In this document: positions 7,128 to 35,576 of the stretch, piece after piece | How the letters are laid out: each line of letters opens with the position of its first letter | Numbering within the stretch: the first letter of the stretch is position 1 | Source: Desulfobacterales bacterium | GTDB lineage: Bacteria; Desulfobacterota; Desulfobacteria; Desulfobacterales; JAAELO01 | Reading direction: 5' to 3' | DNA: 41,221 nucleotides | Assembly: GCA_024226555.1 (NCBI GenBank) | Contig: JAAELO010000754.1 | Span: forward strand, 1-41,221 | Made by a program: the position numbers and the translations under genes | The notes under the pieces: model-generated | The model's input: the letters and a program-made list of their open reading frames with translations, nothing else | Told to the model about the DNA's origin: nothing | The model's database searches: none

Positions 7128-8591
7128 CTATAGTGGAAGTGTGATTGTAAATTGAGTATAAAATCCCTCTTCTGAATCCACTTTAATTTTTCCTTTGTGC
7201 TGCTTTATGGATCTTAAAGCAACAAAGAGACCAAGACCGGTACCTTTGCTGCCTTTTTCTGAATAAAACAGATCAAATATTTTATCAATTTTATCTTCAG
7301 CAATTCCAGTTCCATTATCTTTTACGATAAAAAGAATTCTGTCCTTTTCATTTACAACAGTGAAATCTATTTTTTTATTTTTTTTCTTAGTTGAAAGGCA
7401 AGCATAAAATGCATTTTCAAGAATACTTGCAAAAGCAGCATTAATTGCTGTTTTATCAATTGTCATTTGAATATTTTCTGAAGGATAATTAATATTAAAT
7501 TCAATATCTTCCTGTTTAATTTTTGGCTCAATCGTAAATATCAGCTCTTCAATAAAATCGGAGATAGTTATCTTCTCCTTTTTTGGCTCTCTTTTTTTTG
7601 TATGGAAGAGGATGTCCAGAACCATATCCCTTGTTTTTGAGATCTTTTCCTTTACTATATCCCAGCCTTCATGAATGAGTGAATTGTCCTTTTTGGAAAG
7701 ACCTGACTCAATAAGATAGGAGCCCCCGTCCATGCCCGTTAATACTTGCTTGATGCTATGGGATATTGCTCCAATATGAAGCCCCAGGGAAGCCAAATGG
7801 TCCTGAAGTTCCATAATTTTAGTAATATCTGTAGACATCTCCATAACATTTACAATATTACCATCAGAATCTGTAATTGCTGAGGTTTGAATCAGAATAT
7901 TACGAATGGTTCCATCTTCAAGCTCTATATCCATTTCAGAAAAATGGGATTTGCCATCTTTAAAGGTTTTCTTTACAGGGCAATCCGGGCAATGAGATGT
8001 TCTTCCCTTGTATGCCTTAAAACATGTTGAGGGTCCTTTGTAATTAAAATGTTCTTTAAATATTTTATTTGTTTCAACAATATTCAGATCTTTATCCTGA
8101 ATGGTAATATAGCTTGGTGACTGATTAAATAGCTGAACATATCTTCTTTCAGATTCCTCTAATTTTCTGGTTTTCTCATTTACCAGATCTTCGAGGTTCC
8201 TGGTATACTTTAAGATATTTTTCTTTGTTTCAATTCTGTCCACAGCTCTTTTAAAAGCAATATCCAGAATATCATTATTGATTGGTTTTGTTATAAAATC
8301 CACGGCATCCAACTTTAAGCTTTCAATGGCTAATTTCAGGTCCCCATGACCTGTTATCATTATTACTTCAGTATCAGGACTTTTCTCTTTAATATATTTT
8401 AACAGGGATATACCATCCATCTTAGGCATTCTGATATCCGTAAGAACAATGTCAAAAAACTCTCTGGTTATTAAATCAGCAGCTTTTTTTCCATCATCTA
8501 TGGAAATAACATCGAAACCTGCATCCACAAGGTAAATTCCTAAAACTTTTCGGATGCCTGCTTCATCATCTACAAGCATAATTTTTGTCAT
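7128..8591 (-). CDS. Hybrid receiver-PAS-histidine kinase
   Basis: The 487-residue cytoplasmic protein has an N-terminal receiver (residues 1-120; Asp52 phosphoacceptor, Lys102), a short coiled coil (about 125-150), a PAS domain (about 150-265), a dimerisation helix with a probable phospho-His at 278 (AISHSIKQ), and a C-terminal ATPase domain (about 370-487; NGTGI and GSKGTGLGL boxes). The PAS domain carries Cys190, Cys201 and Cys204 in a C-x10-C-x2-CP arrangement, also seen in the kinase at 11669. This could form a disulfide or bind metal or Fe-S. There is no transmembrane segment. It is the last gene of the Tmc-associated block. Receiver-first kinases usually take signals from another kinase, so this one may relay within the block. 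Confidence 0.9.
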   Translation of the reverse strand: MTKIMLVDDEAGIRKVLGIYLVDAGFDVISIDDGKKAADLITREFFDIVLTDIRMPKMDGISLLKYIKEKSPDTEVIMITGHGDLKLAIESLKLDAVDFITKPINNDILDIAFKRAVDRIETKKNILKYTRNLEDLVNEKTRKLEESERRYVQLFNQSPSYITIQDKDLNIVETNKIFKEHFNYKGPSTCFKAYKGRTSHCPDCPVKKTFKDGKSHFSEMDIELEDGTIRNILIQTSAITDSDGNIVNVMEMSTDITKIMELQDHLASLGLHIGAISHSIKQVLTGMDGGSYLIESGLSKKDNSLIHEGWDIVKEKISKTRDMVLDILFHTKKREPKKEKITISDFIEELIFTIEPKIKQEDIEFNINYPSENIQMTIDKTAINAAFASILENAFYACLSTKKKNKKIDFTVVNEKDRILFIVKDNGTGIAEDKIDKIFDLFYSEKGSKGTGLGLFVALRSIKQHKGKIKVDSEEGFYTQFTITLPL

Positions 8592-8641
8592 AGATTATGT
8601 CCATGCAGTTATTGGTAACCACTAATATTAGAAGTTGCCTA

Positions 8642-9064
8642 TTATGAAATATTCTGGTTTATGGATCTTTTTACTACCTCTTTTAAATATTCGGGATCAG
8701 CATCTTTTGCAACAAAATATTCAGGTTCAGGTATAGTTTCATTTTTTTTTAAATGTTTCAAATTAAGCATTTTTATGTAGTGAAAAAAAGCACTTTTATC
8801 AACGCCTGAGAAGAAAACAACCGGGATATTCTTTAAATCAGGATTTGTCACAAGTTCTTTGTAAACAAGAGCCCCTCCCTTATCAGGCATCATCACATCC
8901 AGTATGATTCCTTTAGGTTTAATTTCACTAAGCTTCAGAAGTCCCTCATTACCATCTTTAGTAAGAACCGGATTTAACCCCATGGATTTAACTAAAGTCA
9001 TGAGGTAAAATCTCATCTGAACTTCATCTTCGATTATTAGAATCTCTTCCGTTTTTGTTACCAT
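8642..9064 (-). CDS. Response regulator, receiver-only with extended C-terminus
   Basis: The protein is about 140 residues long: a receiver with the acidic pair near residues 12-13 (IIEDE), the phosphoacceptor Asp56 (IILDVMMPDKGG) and a VAKDADPEYLKEV tail. The frame is open to an ATG at 9118, which would add 18 residues (MSGCQCEQTR...) and overlap the upstream UspA gene by 40 bases. I prefer the ATG at 9064, 14 bases after the UspA stop, because the receiver fold begins there, although no strong ribosome site is visible at either. The alpha4-beta5 region is longer than in CheY. A receiver of this kind next to a UspA gene is also found by the tmc genes of Desulfovibrio, as I recall it. Confidence 0.8.
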   Translation of the reverse strand: MVTKTEEILIIEDEVQMRFYLMTLVKSMGLNPVLTKDGNEGLLKLSEIKPKGIILDVMMPDKGGALVYKELVTNPDLKNIPVVFFSGVDKSAFFHYIKMLNLKHLKKNETIPEPEYFVAKDADPEYLKEVVKRSINQNIS

Positions 9065-24187: not shown

Positions 24188-24380
24188 GGGAACCTCTAAT
24201 AACTGTCTTTTGACCGAACTTATTTAAGTTGTTTTAAAAGAAAAAAACAAAACAACAGAGTATCATCAAAAAAAAACTGTTGTAAAACCGGCTCGTTATT
24301 TTTTCATGCAGAGATTTATAAAACTAAAAGCGTTTATAAACGCAGTATTTCAATCAAAAATTCTAATTATTAGAGGTTCC
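24188..24380 (-). repeat. Dispersed TIR element, long form, 193 bp, reverse orientation
   Basis: The outer ends gggaacctctaataa and taattattagaggttcc are inverted repeats. The interior on the minus strand carries the conserved aataacgagccgg block and the extra ctctgcat segment also seen in the copy at 30328. The flanks AATA and ATAG do not form a perfect 4-base duplication, perhaps because the last C is lost. No coding capacity. Confidence 0.8.
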
Positions 24381-30063: not shown

Positions 30064-30542
30064 TATTGCTCTCTTTTCTTAATATTTGGGAATCATATGT
30101 CAAAACATCCCTGATTATGTCAAGATAATTTTACAACACTTTGAAAAACAACTAAAAAATTATTGTATCAGGTAGAATATATTGACCTTCATAAATATAT
30201 TGAGTATAATATCTTTTATCTATGTTTGTAAGACCTTAAATTCAAAAAATGACAGAAAGACACCAATCGCTTATTTTTCTTGAAAAGCGACTGAGCTTAA
30301 CAAACGGGTCTTTTTGATTATAATAATGGGAACCCTCTAATAATTAGAATTTTTGATGAAATACAAGTTTATAAAACTTTTAGTTTCATAATATCTCTGC
30401 ATGACAAAAAATAACGAGCTGGTTTTATAACAGTTATTATTGGTAATAACGAAGTATTTCGCAAAAAGTGTAGTTGTTAGAGGTACTCAATTGTGCCTTA
30501 TTTCCTATTAAATCTTTCCTTATAATTTAAGGAGATTTTAAA
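30064..30542. other. Intergenic region with a dispersed element
   Basis: Bases 30328-30488 are a copy of the dispersed element. The left part (30064-30327) carries no gene or clear structure. The leader of the TerB-like gene lies at 30489-30542. Confidence 0.55.
30328..30488 (+). repeat. Dispersed TIR element, intermediate form, 161 bp
   Basis: The left end is gggaaccctctaataattag and the right end is agttgttagaggtactc. The conserved interior aataacgagctgg and cgaagtatttcgc is present, with an additional internal segment (ttataaaactttt...tctctgcatg) shared with the reverse copy at 24188. The flanks TAAT and AATT are only a partial duplication. No coding capacity. Confidence 0.82.
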
Positions 30543-30959
30543 ATGATAGAAAACAGCCCCAAAGGTACACAAATTCTTTTTATGAAGCTACTAATACATC
30601 TGGCTGAAATTGATGGAAAAATATCAAAGGAGGAGGAGAAGATTGTTTCAAAATTCTCAAGAACTTTGAATATACCCTGGAAAGATCTTAATCATAAATG
30701 GGAGCTTCCCAAAATATTAAAGGGAATAACGGATAGTAATGGAAAAATCTATTTTATAGTTGAGCTTACAAGATTAGCTTATTCAGATGGAACTTACGAT
30801 AATCTGGAAAAGGATACTATTTTAAAAATCGCCGAAAAGATAGATATTTCTGAAGAGAAATCCCTTGAAATAGAAAATTGGGTTAAAAAAGAGTTCGCTT
30901 TAAAAAAAGAGTTCAGCGATCTATTAAAAAATGACATTTATGGAACCTCAAATAATTAG
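30543..30959 (+). CDS. TerB-like tellurite-resistance domain protein
   Basis: This 138-residue, all-helical soluble protein has the two TerB/DjlA-type acidic repeats: LAEIDGKISKEEEKIV near residues 17-32 and LAYSDGTYDNLEKDTI near 78-93. These bind metal in TerB and are typical of membrane-stress proteins. The start has an excellent ribosome site (aaggag, spacing 9). It opens a same-strand set with an SPFH protein and an AAA+/Lon protein, although a MITE copy sits between. Its last residues YGTSNN and its stop are read from the left terminal repeat of that element (30942-31128), so the natural C-terminus was probably different. Function is inferred from the domain only. Confidence 0.8.
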   Translation: MIENSPKGTQILFMKLLIHLAEIDGKISKEEEKIVSKFSRTLNIPWKDLNHKWELPKILKGITDSNGKIYFIVELTRLAYSDGTYDNLEKDTILKIAEKIDISEEKSLEIENWVKKEFALKKEFSDLLKNDIYGTSNN

Positions 30960-31128
30960 AATTTTGTTTGAAATTCAGATTACAAAAGTTTTTAGTTTTG
31001 TAAAATTTCTGGTGAGAAAAATGTAATGAGCTGATTTTATAACAGTTATATTTTTGAACAACGCTGTAGTTCGATCAAAAACAAACAAAACTAAAGCCTT
31101 TTGTTTTATAGTCAGTTATTAGGTTCCT
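30942..31128 (+). repeat. Dispersed TIR element, long form, 187 bp, overlapping the TerB-like gene
   Basis: The left end is ggaacctcaaataattag and the right end is agtcagttattaggttcc, with the shared interior (gtaatgagctgattttataacag). The left repeat supplies the last codons and the stop of the TerB-like gene. The flanks TTTA and TTAA form an imperfect duplication. It separates the TerB-like gene from the SPFH gene by about 230 bases. Confidence 0.8.
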
Positions 31129-31191
31129 TTAACAAAATCTTCCATTTTAAACATAAAAAAATATTAAATTATGTAATTGAGGAGTGAGCTT

Positions 31192-32187
31192 ATGTCTGAA
31201 GAAAGAGTACAACAAGCACTACAAAGAGGTTCAGTCCGCAGAGTAATGCACTGGCTTGTTCTGATAACAATATATGTGAGTCTTATCTACAGTGTAATTG
31301 CATTGATTTATGCCACCAAAACCATATACAAGGTTAAAAAGAATTATGCTGTGGTTTTAGAGAGATTTGGTGGAGAAAGAGAAGCTGTTACAGAGGTTGG
31401 ATGGCATGCAAGACTACCTTTTTTTACAAATATTGAGCAGGTTGTTCCTCTTATGAATCAGACTCTTTTTATTGGTGATAGCAAAATGCCAATGAGAATA
31501 ATTTCAAAAGAGAATGTTGCTCTTTGGACATCAGGTGTTCTCACATACCGAATTAACAATCTCAAGATATGGGCAATTGAAAATCTTGATCCACAAAATC
31601 TTTTGCAGGGGGATTTTGATGGGATCGTAAAAGATATACTTCAATCATATAAAGTAAATCATCTGATCAGTAGCAGGGAAAAGGTAAAAGAGGAGATATT
31701 TAAAGCGTTGAAGTCAAGACCCATAAATCTTGATGGCCCAACTCTTGAGGAAAAATATGGTCTTGAAGTAATCTCTTTTGTATTAAAAGAAACTCGTTTT
31801 GGTGACAAACTAATTGAAGCGACAGAAGAGAAAAAGAGGCGTGAACTTATAGCGGAAGCTGAAAATTATGCAGCGGACCAGGAAGCAAGCAGGATTGACA
31901 AACTCTACAAAGCTTATCTGAAAAACATTAAAGCTCTACAGGTTGGTCTCGGAGGAAAGGGAGATAATATGAATATGGCAATTCTCCAGTTTCTTGTCCA
32001 ACAAAAGTGGGCTTCTGCTTATGAAAAGAACCAGACAGGCCAGAACACTGTGGTTATACAAAACACATCAAAATCACCCAATCTAAATATAACTACTGGT
32101 TTTAGAAAAGCACGTACGAAAAAGGTAGCCGAGAAAAAAATTGAAAAAGCTAAAAAACCTGAGATTACTTATGCCATCGGAGAATAA
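31192..32187 (+). CDS. SPFH (band-7/stomatin-like) membrane protein
   Basis: ATG 31192 has gaggag seven bases upstream; the in-frame TTG at 31177 is ignored. The 331-residue product has a single N-terminal membrane segment (about 18-42) preceded by a basic region. An SPFH domain follows (about 45-225; KKNYAVVLERFGGEREAVTEVGWHARLPFF), then a charged, coiled-coil stretch (EEKKRRELIAEAENYAADQE) and a basic tail. SPFH proteins such as HflK and HflC form ring-like membrane scaffolds and modulate an associated AAA+ protease. Here the next gene, two bases after the stop, encodes such a protease with Lon catalytic residues. The pair is therefore probably a functional complex at the membrane. Confidence 0.88.
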   Translation: MSEERVQQALQRGSVRRVMHWLVLITIYVSLIYSVIALIYATKTIYKVKKNYAVVLERFGGEREAVTEVGWHARLPFFTNIEQVVPLMNQTLFIGDSKMPMRIISKENVALWTSGVLTYRINNLKIWAIENLDPQNLLQGDFDGIVKDILQSYKVNHLISSREKVKEEIFKALKSRPINLDGPTLEEKYGLEVISFVLKETRFGDKLIEATEEKKRRELIAEAENYAADQEASRIDKLYKAYLKNIKALQVGLGGKGDNMNMAILQFLVQQKWASAYEKNQTGQNTVVIQNTSKSPNLNITTGFRKARTKKVAEKKIEKAKKPEITYAIGE

Positions 32188-32189
32188 TT

Positions 32190-35100
32190 ATGGGAGTAAG
32201 ACTTACAAAAGAGATATCCTATATAAAATTATCTGAGAGAAGAATCAGGGAGATAGAAGCTCTTGTAAATGACTGGCCAAACGAAACAAAAGCATTTATG
32301 AGAGCGAGGCTCCACCAATATACGCCACCTTCTTTGATTTTCAGTTTTATAAAGAAAATATACAGGTTTATATTTAGAATTACTGGAAGAAAAAAATTTG
32401 CTATTTTAAGTAATCCGGATATCTTAACGAACTGGCAAAAAAGATTTGAACTTTCAGGGGAATCCAATCCTCAGGATGCCTGGAATAAAATACTTGAGAA
32501 AGAGATAACAAGAAAAGATTATAAGTACATTATGGCACTTCTTGATAAAGAGCTTATAGATGTGCATGTCCCTTTAGAACTTAAAGATCTTTTTAGAAAC
32601 ATATATAAAGCACATATCAGAAAGGAGTACCTTTCAGATAGTTCAGTTCCCAAAGCACCCTTACTACTAATCACCGGTACCAGTGGTAGTGGGAAAACAG
32701 CAACGATTGAACATACTATAGATACAATAATCTTTCAGAATGAATCCATTCTGGAAGTAGATCTTAAAAAGAAAAAAGAGGAGAGACTTGAAAAGGAATC
32801 ATTATGGAAATCTCTGGAAGAGGTCGACCCTGAACTTGCTGAAGAGATAAGAATTAGAAAAAAATTAAGATTTTATAAAATATTATCACATATACCAATT
32901 ATAAAATTTATTTTTAAAAAAATAATTGGTACAAATCTTTCTGAACTTGAAGAACAAGGTATTTATGTTGATTATTCAGTTGTTACTCCAAATGATTACC
33001 AGACAGCTTATGCCGGAGAACCTGGAAATTACCTGAAAAAAGCCATGGGGGATGTTAAAAGGACCTCAATCCGGCATCTTGAAGAAGCTCACAGTGCGTT
33101 TGGCAAAGCAGATTCAGGGGGCGATCAGGGTGGAGTTGCAAGGCAACAAAGAACACTTATAGATACTTCAAATCTAATACTTGATGAAGTCATTAATGGA
33201 AGGCGCGATTGTTTTATCGTTGCATCTACAGATCAACCTGAAAAATTTGACCCAGCAATATATAGAAGATTTGTTGAAAAAGGCTCGATAATAGATATAT
33301 CAAAATTCTGGAATAACCCTGATAATTTAAGAGAACTTGTAAGATTAGAGTTATCAAGAAATAACATTCATTCTGGAAAAAAGGAATACCTGTTATCAAA
33401 CTCTTTAAAATCCATACCAATTTCAACTATTGATGATTCTGTGCAAAAAATTATTATTATATTTAAAGAGAAGAATCTTAAAATAACACCATCATATGTA
33501 AGAAAACTTATTCAATCTATAATTGAGATAAAGAAAGATTTTAAAACCGAATATTTTGACGAATCTGATCTTATAAAAAGAGCTTTTGAACTTGTTGCGC
33601 AAAATGCATATGGGGAACTTTTCGGAAAAGTTGTCAACAAAATGGATAGGACTTCCAAATGGGAGGAATATATAGGCCTTGTTAAAAATAAACTTTCAGA
33701 GATGGCAAATAACTGTCTCTATTATGGTGTAAGTGAAGAGAAAGGGGTTGTTTTAAATGGTCCTCCAGGTAGTGGAAAAACATTTCTTGTAAGATCATGG
33801 TTAAGTGAGAACAGAGATGTGCATGATATATCTGCAAGTCCAAACGATCTTTTTGATTCATCAAATCCCTATGATGGGGCTCTGGCAAATCTTGAAAATA
33901 TTTATGATATTGCAAAAATGATTGCTCCATCTGTAGTTTTCTTTGATGAGGGAGATTCGTTAGCACCAAAAAGAAGTACAACTGGAGGTTCTCCCTCAGA
34001 TAAGCTTACAAATAAATTTTTGAGTCTAATTGATGGTGATGTTCCATTAAATAAGGTTTTCACGGTTCTTACAACAAACAGAATTGATATAATGGACCCA
34101 GCACTCATCAGGTCAAAAAGGCTAAAAGTTCTTGAAATATCAGGGCATCTCAGACAGGAAGATATTGCAGAAATAATTCGTCAACCACTGGAAAAAATAC
34201 CACTTGTTAATGGTTTAGATCTTAAAACAATTGTTGAGTCAGCAAACAGTATCTGTAACACTCCTGCGGATTATACAGCATTCATTGAAAAAGCGATGTC
34301 TTTGAGAACAACAGAATATGCTGTTGTGCAAAAACTCAAGATTATCGATAAATTAAATGATAGAGATAGGGATAGTTTTTTTAAGCTGAACTTTAAAACT
34401 CTACTTGGTATTCTTGAAGCATTAGATGCTCCACACTCACTACGATCTGCAGTCAAAAAAAACCATGGGGAATATATTAAAAATTTTGATAAAATTAAAC
34501 CATTATATGAAATGATCTGTTCATCTGATGATTATCCCCTTTCCCTTACACATCTTCATTCAGCAAGAGAGGAAATCTCAGAAAGTCCTGTAAATCAGGG
34601 GAAAATTCAATTAGATGAATATCTTGAAGCTGAACTAAGCCAGGAACCCCAAGTCGGTTTTATTATTGGTGTAGGAGCAAATGATGTTTCAGGAGTTCTT
34701 CTTCCAATTGCATCAAATCTAACTTATAAATTCAGCGATGAGAAAGTTATGGTAACTGGTGCTGTGTCGTCATCAACATCTGCCACTGCTCAAATGGAAC
34801 TTTCTGTTAAGATGACAAACCAGTCAGCACAGGAAGCACTGACATTGGTTAAAAACTATTTTCAATATCTGATGCCTGATTTAAGCGTCGCAAAAGTTCT
34901 TGGTAATTTTCTGGAGGGATACACTATACATCATCAGCTACTTTCCGCATCTTACAATGTTGGAGGTCCTTCAGCGGGCTATGCTCTTGCAATTAATACC
35001 CTTTCAGCTCTTCTTATGATCCCGGTATGTAACGATTTTGGTATTACTGGTGCTCCATGGACAAAGGGTGCAACAAAGGAAGATATTGGAGGTTCTGTTA

Positions 35101-35576
35101 TTATTGGTGGTCACAAAAAGAAAACAGAAACAGTTTTAAAATATCTGAAGAGAATGTATATGCCTGTAAAAAATTACTACGATTTTAGTGAGGAGCTTCT
35201 GGAAAGTTACTGGGCAAGAAACAAAGATGTTCTGGAGGTCAGAAGTTTTGGTCTTCTGATTCCTGAAGTTATTTCTATGAGTCCTGAACATCAAATAATA
35301 ATAAATGAAATTGTTAACCAGCGTATTAATTATAAACTAAATAAATATATTGGAGAGAAACAGATCGATAATATTGAAACAATTATCGATGAAAAACTGA
35401 AATTATTAAGGTTAAACGTTGAAACTGAAATAAAAAGAAGACTTTATGCCATATATGAATTTATATTAGATGATAATAGAGATCCATACACGCCACTGGT
35501 CTCTATTTTTAAAAATGTTCCAATTAAAGAAGACGTTTCCATGTCATATGTTCCTAAAGAGTTAAATGCTATATAG
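32190..35576 (+). CDS. Tandem AAA+ ATPase with C-terminal Lon-type protease domain
   Basis: A 1128-residue protein. AAA-1 has Walker A GTSGSGKT at 163-170, a degenerate Walker B (LEEAH, 297-301) and Arg residues in DPAIYRRF (354-361). Between the two Walker motifs there is an extra segment of about 80-110 residues including a hydrophobic stretch (ILSHIPIIKFIFKKII, 231-246); a membrane insert lies in the same place in archaeal LonB. AAA-2 has Walker A GPPGSGKT (524-531), Walker B VVFFDEGD (582-589) and sensor TTN (628-630). Residues about 820-1025 match a Lon (S16) domain: Ser928 in GGPSAGYALA and Lys976 in IIGGHKKK, 48 apart, form the catalytic dyad. Two AAA modules in front of a Lon domain is unusual. 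Two bases after the SPFH gene. Confidence 0.85.
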   Translation: MGVRLTKEISYIKLSERRIREIEALVNDWPNETKAFMRARLHQYTPPSLIFSFIKKIYRFIFRITGRKKFAILSNPDILTNWQKRFELSGESNPQDAWNKILEKEITRKDYKYIMALLDKELIDVHVPLELKDLFRNIYKAHIRKEYLSDSSVPKAPLLLITGTSGSGKTATIEHTIDTIIFQNESILEVDLKKKKEERLEKESLWKSLEEVDPELAEEIRIRKKLRFYKILSHIPIIKFIFKKIIGTNLSELEEQGIYVDYSVVTPNDYQTAYAGEPGNYLKKAMGDVKRTSIRHLEEAHSAFGKADSGGDQGGVARQQRTLIDTSNLILDEVINGRRDCFIVASTDQPEKFDPAIYRRFVEKGSIIDISKFWNNPDNLRELVRLELSRNNIHSGKKEYLLSNSLKSIPISTIDDSVQKIIIIFKEKNLKITPSYVRKLIQSIIEIKKDFKTEYFDESDLIKRAFELVAQNAYGELFGKVVNKMDRTSKWEEYIGLVKNKLSEMANNCLYYGVSEEKGVVLNGPPGSGKTFLVRSWLSENRDVHDISASPNDLFDSSNPYDGALANLENIYDIAKMIAPSVVFFDEGDSLAPKRSTTGGSPSDKLTNKFLSLIDGDVPLNKVFTVLTTNRIDIMDPALIRSKRLKVLEISGHLRQEDIAEIIRQPLEKIPLVNGLDLKTIVESANSICNTPADYTAFIEKAMSLRTTEYAVVQKLKIIDKLNDRDRDSFFKLNFKTLLGILEALDAPHSLRSAVKKNHGEYIKNFDKIKPLYEMICSSDDYPLSLTHLHSAREEISESPVNQGKIQLDEYLEAELSQEPQVGFIIGVGANDVSGVLLPIASNLTYKFSDEKVMVTGAVSSSTSATAQMELSVKMTNQSAQEALTLVKNYFQYLMPDLSVAKVLGNFLEGYTIHHQLLSASYNVGGPSAGYALAINTLSALLMIPVCNDFGITGAPWTKGATKEDIGGSVIIGGHKKKTETVLKYLKRMYMPVKNYYDFSEELLESYWARNKDVLEVRSFGLLIPEVISMSPEHQIIINEIVNQRINYKLNKYIGEKQIDNIETIIDEKLKLLRLNVETEIKRRLYAIYEFILDDNRDPYTPLVSIFKNVPIKEDVSMSYVPKELNAI

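Follow-up and report, generated by a model that had tools for sequence, protein, structure and literature searches.

A predicted tandem-AAA+ Lon-type protease and an SPFH membrane protein form a conserved gene pair in sulfate- and metal-reducing bacteria

The gene pair and its conservation

Here we describe two adjacent genes in a 41,221-nucleotide stretch of DNA from a Desulfobacterales bacterium (assembly GCA_024226555.1, contig JAAELO010000754.1, positions 1 to 41,221; hereafter the window), the first encoding an SPFH/Band 7 membrane protein and the second a large, predicted ATP-dependent protease with two AAA+ modules and a Lon-type (S16) peptidase domain. The stop codon of the SPFH gene and the start of the protease gene are two bases apart, and both open reading frames, as well as their spacing, agree with an initial annotation of the sequence, which had described a single-span SPFH protein followed by a 1,128-residue protein. 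The mechanically called SPFH reading frame starts at a TTG at 31177; we prefer the ATG at 31192, because a gaggag site precedes it and the starts of relatives agree. The pair comprises the following features:

31192–32187, forward strand: SPFH/Band 7 membrane protein, 331 residues (Pfam Band_7, 74.9 bits; cut-off 23.6)
31249–31320, forward strand: single transmembrane helix of the SPFH protein, approximately residues 20–43, with a basic N-terminal tail before it (hydropathy 2.44 over 19 residues; model helix 3–44)
31330–31887, forward strand: SPFH/Band 7 domain and start of a long helix (PF01145 match)
32190–35576, forward strand: tandem-AAA+ Lon-type protease, 1,128 residues (Pfam AAA, Lon_C)
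32190–32555, forward strand: N-terminal domain of the protease, mostly helical, residues 1–122 (model predicted local distance difference test (pLDDT) mostly 70–90)
32556–33629, forward strand: AAA1, p97 D1-like fold, residues 123–480 (fold match to p97 N-D1, 4ko8)
32676–32699, forward strand: AAA1 Walker A, residues 163–170 (G163, G166, G168 and K169 in 35/35)
32760–32960, forward strand: basic amphipathic helical insert between AAA1 Walker A and B, residues 191–257 (no transmembrane span by hydropathy)
33072–33092, forward strand: AAA1 Walker B region, residues 295–301 (E298/E299 in 35/35)
33660–34343, forward strand: AAA2, Cdc48/VCP-like, residues 491–718 (phmmer 1.3e-41 to the VCP-like ATPase 5vc7)
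33759–33782, forward strand: AAA2 Walker A, residues 524–531 (35-sequence motif tally)
33930–33956, forward strand: AAA2 Walker B, residues 581–589 (35-sequence motif tally)
34545–35279, forward strand: Lon (S16) peptidase domain, approximately residues 786–1030 (Lon_C over cut-off; profile match to LonB 1xhk)
34971–34973, forward strand: predicted catalytic Ser928 in GGPSAG (motif in 80/80 loci)
35121–35123, forward strand: predicted catalytic Lys978 (K in 35/35; motif in 78/80 loci)
35280–35513, forward strand: C-terminal helical extension after the Lon domain, residues 1031–1108 (model; mean pairwise identity 0.39)

A scan of genome contigs from 84,980 species reported 153 relatives of the protease, of which the best 80 were kept; these are 51–62% identical to the window protein. 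Their titles point to Desulfobacterota, with names of Desulfobacterales, Desulfobulbales, Desulfarculaceae and Desulfuromonadales, or are generic (Deltaproteobacteria, Proteobacteria). Named isolates that carry the gene are Desulfosarcina alkanivorans, Desulfobacter latus, Desulfocicer vacuolatum and Geothermobacter hydrogeniphilus. By BLAST, an SPFH gene lies directly upstream on the same strand in all 74 loci that have more than 300 bases of upstream sequence; the remaining 6 of the 80 start at or near a contig end. Spacing in the 74 loci ranges from −68 to +202 bases, with 28 pairs abutting or overlapping, 43 within 60 bases and 3 further apart. Greedy gene calling placed the SPFH gene at position −1 in 73 loci, compared with 74 by BLAST, and in a second genome set, which overlaps the 80, it is upstream in 17 of 17 regions, with three more regions lacking room or holding a fragment only. 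No other gene group occurs at a fixed position in most of the 80 loci. The SPFH–protease adjacency in 74 of 74 loci is above chance.

The two genes also co-occur. Within the order, the protease gene was found in 20 of 96 genomes (the window's own included; some copies are split at contig ends), and the SPFH subfamily (E ≤ 1e-25) in 19, all of them among the 20 carriers, as opposed to 0 of the 76 genomes without the protease. The contig of the single carrier that lacks an SPFH match (G059) begins inside the protease gene. Thus the SPFH neighbour, which the initial annotation had put forward for a survey in relatives, proved conserved in both position and occurrence. In a sample of the phylum restricted to genomes of at least 90% completeness, 13 of 394 carry the protease; the lowest match scores ~1,500 bits, and none weaker was found down to E 1e-60. 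Divergence of the SPFH protein is correlated with that of the protease across 27 loci (Mantel r 0.86; 0 of 5,000 permutations as high, best permuted value 0.39), a correlation that partnership and shared vertical descent would produce alike. The pair is found in many sulfate- and metal-reducing bacteria, side by side wherever this could be checked.

One further genome of the order beyond the 20 carriers, 95% complete (locus L062, G050:C87), holds only an isolated 115-residue protease fragment at 8392–8733. The fragment is 65% identical, the surrounding 18 kb contain no SPFH match, and it is likely a relic of loss. Two of the 13 phylum-sample matches (L154, G202:C97; L155, G468:C1) are flagged with one TAA inside the aligned stretch, which may be a late stop, a frameshift or an error; both are from highly complete genomes of the same family.

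Domain architecture of the protease and its SPFH partner

Residue conservation was tallied in 35 sequences, namely the window protease and 34 of the 80 kept relatives. Pfam AAA matches the protease in two stretches (96.2 bits; cut-off 21.2), and the Walker A glycines and lysines of AAA1 and AAA2 alike are invariant in 35/35. Also kept in all 35 are E298/E299 and R359/R360 of AAA1, next to G163, G166, G168 and K169, and K530, D586/E587, N630, R641 and R644 of AAA2. Simpler motif expressions applied to the 80 loci recovered the Walker A and B motifs of AAA1 in 79 and 80 loci and those of AAA2 in 79 and 76, the misses being one later-starting contig and single-residue variants (for example, FIDEGD, LFDEGD, FFDEGE and GKS).

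AAA2 is closest by sequence to Cdc48/VCP (5vc7) and is the best-conserved region of the protein, with a mean pairwise identity of 0.77 as compared with 0.73 for the Lon domain. AAA1 finds Cdc48 by sequence only at E 0.003, ranked behind UvrA P-loop matches, in an alignment that takes in the M-A-G-E stretch of D1 in yeast Cdc48. The fold predicted for AAA1 matches that of p97 N-D1 (4ko8) with Z 15.1 and a root-mean-square deviation (rmsd) of 3.5 over 227 aligned residues. The modelled tandem as a whole gave fold matches to Rix7 and p97, with rmsd values of ~7 to 17 Å, so domain packing in the full-length model (pLDDT 71; predicted template modelling score (pTM) 0.52) is unreliable. The AAA+ part therefore consists of two modules in p97/Cdc48 D1–D2 order; both modules had been recognized before, and it was their p97/Cdc48 likeness that the initial annotation missed. 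The pore segment of AAA2 (~33837–33899, residues ~550–570) reads D-x-x-N-P-x-D/E-G, with P560, G563 and N567 invariant in the 35 sequences, an unusual segment for a translocating motor.

Similarity to Cdc48/p97 thus extends to the order of the tandem, the VCP-like AAA2 and the D1-like fold of AAA1. By contrast, the protease carries a Lon peptidase fused behind D2 and scores 89.7 bits against an NCBIfam CDC48 cut-off of 802.65. The 13 Pfam families that match it at E ≤ 1e-3 include no Cdc48 N-domain family; all 13 lie outside residues 1–122, for which no family was found at this threshold.

Pfam Lon_C covers residues 810–1000 of the protease (26.3 bits; cut-off 21.1) and was found in 33/35 family members at E ≤ 1e-3, so the S16 assignment of the C-terminal region stands. 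A family profile of the Lon domain matched LonB 1xhk at 4.7e-6; of 32 solved chains matched at E ≤ 1, 26 belong to Lon and six, at E 0.024 or worse, are unrelated. NCBIfam scores fall far below the equivalog cut-offs for spore_lonB (42.0/723.3), lon (41.5/608.05) and lon_rel (31.2/516.6). These matches identify the domain as a divergent S16 peptidase; as the model is poor at residues 800–876, 912–927 and 950–974 within it, the assignment rests on sequence. LonB does not appear among the fold matches listed, which has no bearing on the assignment.

The GGPSAG motif with Ser928 is present in 80/80 loci, in keeping with the serine proposed by the initial annotation. The lysine that had been paired with it, Lys976, was rejected: residue 976 varies among the 35 sequences (18 K, 16 R, 1 T), whereas residue 978 is K in 35/35 and aligns with the lysine four residues past GG in LonB 1xhk, which we take to be the catalytic lysine of LonB. 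An expression for Lys978 missed 2 of the 80 loci, one in which the contig ends earlier and one in which GG is changed to GR but the lysine remains. The predicted peptidase dyad is thus Ser928/Lys978.

With LonA, archaeal LonB and spore LonB, the protease shares the S16 domain, a predicted Ser–Lys dyad and a GPSA motif of the LonA type, as that motif is characterized in PMC2605481. It differs from the named Lons in its two AAA modules, as opposed to the one AAA+ module of LonA and LonB, and in scoring below all equivalog cut-offs; from LonA in that no LON-domain family was found (Pfam, E ≤ 1e-3); and from archaeal LonB in the absence of a membrane span between Walker A and B. The M41 zinc peptidase is likewise not among its 13 Pfam families at E ≤ 1e-3. 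The initial annotation likewise held the combination to be neither a standard Lon nor FtsH. The genome also contains three strong Lon genes besides the paired protease and three further modest Lon_C matches over cut-off (G000:C354:30028, C380:76664 and C456:128075); the frames of 507 and 462 residues among the latter presumably correspond in size to ComM and RadA, which have Lon-like domains.

Turning to the partner protein, a Band 7 domain (matched in 28/28 aligned family members) and a membrane anchor are both present, placing it in the SPFH superfamily. The NCBIfam HflK and HflC models did not match it at E ≤ 0.01, whereas the HflK and HflC of its own genome, encoded on a different contig from the pair, reach 261 and 275 bits in that search. 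Compared with the SPFH family profile, HflC gave an unconvincing alignment (probability 0.5), and HflK aligned to the window protein by BLASTP at E 0.039 (258 columns, 21% identity). By these comparisons, the paired SPFH protein is not an HflK or an HflC. Its model is poor (pLDDT 64, pTM 0.40), and the closest folds, PHB1/2, stomatin and HflK/C, are weak matches (E 3e-3 to 4e-2, none at 1e-3). Two more Band 7 proteins are encoded in the genome, at G000:C753:92509-93072 (on the contig of the window, outside the window) and at G000:C78:42153-42608, the latter a weak FloT match (48.8 bits; cut-off 700).

The pair resembles HflKC–FtsH in linking an SPFH membrane protein to an AAA+ protease and in having one N-terminal span directly before the SPFH domain. 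However, its protease is of the Lon type (Ser–Lys), has two AAA modules and lacks a clear span, whereas FtsH is a zinc protease with two spans, and there is one SPFH protein, not two, with no match to the HflK/HflC models. A search for M41 located the single FtsH gene of the genome on contig C627. At most, the pair would work in the manner of HflKC–FtsH; it does not belong to that system, as its protease is something other than FtsH and its SPFH protein falls outside the HflK and HflC models. SPFH–NfeD operons of the stomatin/flotillin type are similar in being conserved SPFH operons with a membrane or protease partner; here, the partner is not NfeD.

Surroundings of the pair

Upstream of the pair lie a TerB-family gene and two copies of a repeat:

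30334–30461, forward strand: copy 1 of a repeat resembling a miniature inverted-repeat transposable element (MITE), upstream of TerB (repeat comparison)
30543–30959, forward strand: TerB-family protein gene (Pfam TerB, 39.5 bits; cut-off 24.4), a neighbour judged to be outside the module
30946–31073, forward strand: copy 2 of the MITE-like repeat, between TerB and the SPFH gene (repeat comparison)

The initial annotation had counted TerB, which is on the same strand, as part of the gene set. In the loci of relatives, however, TerB found no match by blastp (E ≤ 1e-4 in the 80 loci; E ≤ 1e-3 in 20 genome regions, the two sets overlapping) or by phmmer at E ≤ 10 in either set. Given this and the repeat copy between TerB and the SPFH gene, we rejected TerB as a component of the module, and its proposed co-occurrence with the pair was not borne out.

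The two repeat copies that flank TerB are 73% identical over 128 bases. A search with copy 2 and its surroundings scored 40 of 918 candidates and gave at least 47 matches in the genome, counting copy 2 itself; copy 1 was not among the matches listed. The 18-mer at the core of the repeat (≤1 mismatch) occurs 44 times, compared with 0 for a reversed control, and related 18-mers (2 mismatches) lie in the window at 24277, 24718 and 37976. Nine aligned copies start at or near GGGAACCTCTAATAA, and in approximately five of them the other end carries a close inverted counterpart, which makes the repeat look like a MITE. It has dozens of copies in the genome and at least two length variants.

Among the recurring neighbour groups of the 80 loci, 20 of the 23 listed were typed, by one member each. 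They comprise an amidohydrolase, CinA, hydrolases, PLP enzymes, FloA, NfeD, an Ada-like protein, a CbbQ-like ATPase, a GGDEF-EAL protein, an ABC ATPase, a ParA-like ATPase, an acyl-CoA synthetase-like enzyme, methyltransferases including MetW, a binding protein, a protein with a zinc ribbon below threshold and another that has no family. No known defence family is among these 20. Of the 80 loci, 10 have a gene for FloA, itself an SPFH protein, downstream of the pair and 8 have one for NfeD, in both cases on the opposite strand (for example, L098 13899-15365); the member typed is from Desulfobacula.

The region upstream of the SPFH gene was scanned for promoters in 73 relatives on the given strand, with mismatches allowed in the patterns and mononucleotide shuffles for comparison. 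CIRCE, sigma-54 and sigma-E sites each numbered 0, and sigma-32-like sites were as frequent as in shuffled sequence (9 versus a mean of 9.3). Sigma-70-like sites alone exceeded the shuffles (33/73 versus 4.8).

Searches of plasmid and phage collections (333 and 29 records matched) returned no match covering 80% of the protease, and the matches listed, 20 for each collection, fall within residues 262–804. In viral contigs, 57 pattern matches included no relative of the protease. PADLOC models matched its AAA parts only (IetA, 3.9e-13; TRIP13, 1.5e-10; mad8, 2.1e-10).

Membrane topology and the proposed partnership

The insert between the AAA1 Walker motifs was previously noted as a hydrophobic helical segment at the place where archaeal LonB has its membrane spans. 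It is indeed helical in the model; the membrane location did not hold, as residues 226–250 are basic and amphipathic (over the 35 sequences, hydropathy averages 0.03 and net charge +5.9), and a LonB-like span was rejected. The top 19-residue hydrophobic window of the protease exceeds the usual 1.6 mark in 21/35 sequences and lies inside the folded Lon domain in 32/35; outside Lon, 1.6 is exceeded in 1/35 (L111, residues 46–63 of the N-terminal domain, 1.65). With no span in the insert and the top windows within Lon, the protease is predicted to be cytosolic. It perhaps touches the membrane via amphipathic helices, and in some members an N-terminal helix may do so.

An S16 profile match combined with a conserved, co-occurring SPFH neighbour makes an HflKC–FtsH-like assembly with a Lon-type peptidase the best inference, and we lean, if modestly, towards an ATP-dependent protease that is tethered to the membrane and acts together with an SPFH ring, with a peptidase unrelated to that of FtsH. 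The SPFH protein would insert into the cytoplasmic membrane by its single span and oligomerize into a ring or dome, organizing a membrane patch that recruits the protease. The latter would be cytosolic, self-contained and ATP-dependent, its subunits stacking an N-terminal domain, a p97 D1-like AAA+ ring, a p97 D2-like AAA+ ring and a Lon Ser–Lys peptidase ring. The double motor would then unfold and extract membrane-associated or damaged proteins, which the Lon chamber would cut, so that overall a Cdc48–Lon chain would take the place of FtsH. Homology suggests the hexamer, the ring or dome and the ATPase and peptidase activities; genetic linkage and the analogy to HflKC–FtsH suggest the physical association, the membrane substrates and the quality-control role. 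FtsH works with HflK/C SPFH assemblies, according to PMC12048511. A bolder version, possible in our view though rather doubtful, is a new class of dislocase–protease for membrane proteins in which an SPFH ring fences a membrane patch and holds a three-tier Cdc48–Lon machine, parallel to and independent of HflKC–FtsH.

Several observations weigh against an SPFH–protease assembly. No clear transmembrane span was found in the protease by hydropathy in the 35 sequences, and the SPFH domain is predicted to be on the other side of the membrane: across 74 relatives, the 20 residues before the SPFH span are more positive than the 20 after it in 61, equal in 8 and less positive in 5 (means +4.3 and +2.5), a bias that favours an N-in orientation with a periplasmic SPFH domain, although the window's own protein reverses it (+2 before, +4 after). 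This topology mismatch is the main problem for any SPFH–protease complex, and the initial annotation did not address it. If the domain is periplasmic and the protease spanless, contact would be made via the N-terminal tail, the membrane or a further adaptor, and the tail is short and poorly conserved (identity 0.34). SPFH proteins differ in this respect, the SPFH domains of HflK/HflC being predicted periplasmic and those of QmcA and YqiK cytoplasmic in PMC10434171. Were the domain cytosolic, the dome could enclose the protease and form a sealed, membrane-only proteolytic compartment. Further, the pore loop of p97 D2 carries an aromatic residue that is absent from the aligned AAA2 segment, so motor details may differ from p97; the promoter scan gave no heat-shock-type signal, leaving a stress role without regulatory support; and the case for SPFH–protease binding comes from genetic linkage.

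The same topology lends itself to a looser relationship, in which the protease is mainly soluble and the SPFH protein serves it as adaptor, inhibitor or regulator, or in which both act in one pathway such as membrane stress without a stable complex and the operon reflects co-regulation only. A protease without a clear span and a probably periplasmic SPFH domain would fit this, and a passage of PMC10434171 describes HflKC as a negative regulator of FtsH. However, adjacency in every testable locus with no other fixed neighbour, together with co-occurrence in 19 of 20 carriers and no non-carrier, suggests that neither works alone, and we consider this explanation unlikely. Less probable still is that the large protein is chiefly a Cdc48-like unfoldase or disaggregase whose Lon domain is minor, structural or self-processing: AAA2 is better conserved than Lon and the closest solved relatives are Cdc48/p97, but the Ser928 motif is present in all 80 loci and Lys978 is kept wherever it can be read, which argues for selection on peptidase activity.

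If the pair were a module for defence, against phages or otherwise, its patchy distribution within the order and the phylum would be accounted for, and the PADLOC matches to IetA, TRIP13 and mad8 point the same way. Yet these matches are limited to the AAA parts, the typed neighbours include no known defence family, and the plasmid, phage and viral collections yielded neither an 80%-coverage match nor a viral relative; we regard a defence role as very improbable. To the idea that TerB, the SPFH protein and the protease form one stress operon we give hardly any credence, since, despite their shared strand in the window, TerB is unmatched in the overlapping sets of loci and regions and a MITE-like copy separates it from the SPFH gene.

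The preferred reading, a protease tethered through an SPFH ring, would join a set of SPFH–protease partnerships that, in PMC2636767, includes HflKC/FtsH, prohibitins/m-AAA protease and stomatin-like proteins/NfeD–ClpP-type proteases. In open-licence PMC papers, we found no description of an SPFH protein paired with a two-AAA Lon. Passages of that 2009 survey of 12 prokaryotic SPFH subfamilies give links to NfeD and FtsH and none to Lon; the Lon architectures listed in passages of a 2008 serine protease survey do not include that of the pair (PMC2605481); the word Lon is absent from excerpts of a 2024 study of PSP systems that treat Band 7 with AAA+ partners (PMC11237479); and in excerpts of a 2024 ESCRT study SPFH genes are connected with ESCRT loci of archaea, again without Lon (PMC11188069). 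The pair thus appears to be an SPFH-partnered AAA+ protease whose predicted architecture was found named nowhere in the literature searched.

The role of an SPFH assembly for its protease is still argued, as discussed in PMC12048511. Where the protease coupled to an SPFH protein has an unrelated peptidase, the partnership would have a second, independent instance, one that would help to separate the features due to the SPFH assembly from those due to FtsH. A p97-like double motor and a Lon chamber in one chain would add an architecture to the ATP-dependent proteases; if the bolder version is true, a single polypeptide would extract, unfold and degrade, as p97 plus the proteasome do in eukaryotes. 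For the bacteria that carry it, the pair may be a second, FtsH-independent route to destroy damaged membrane-associated proteins.

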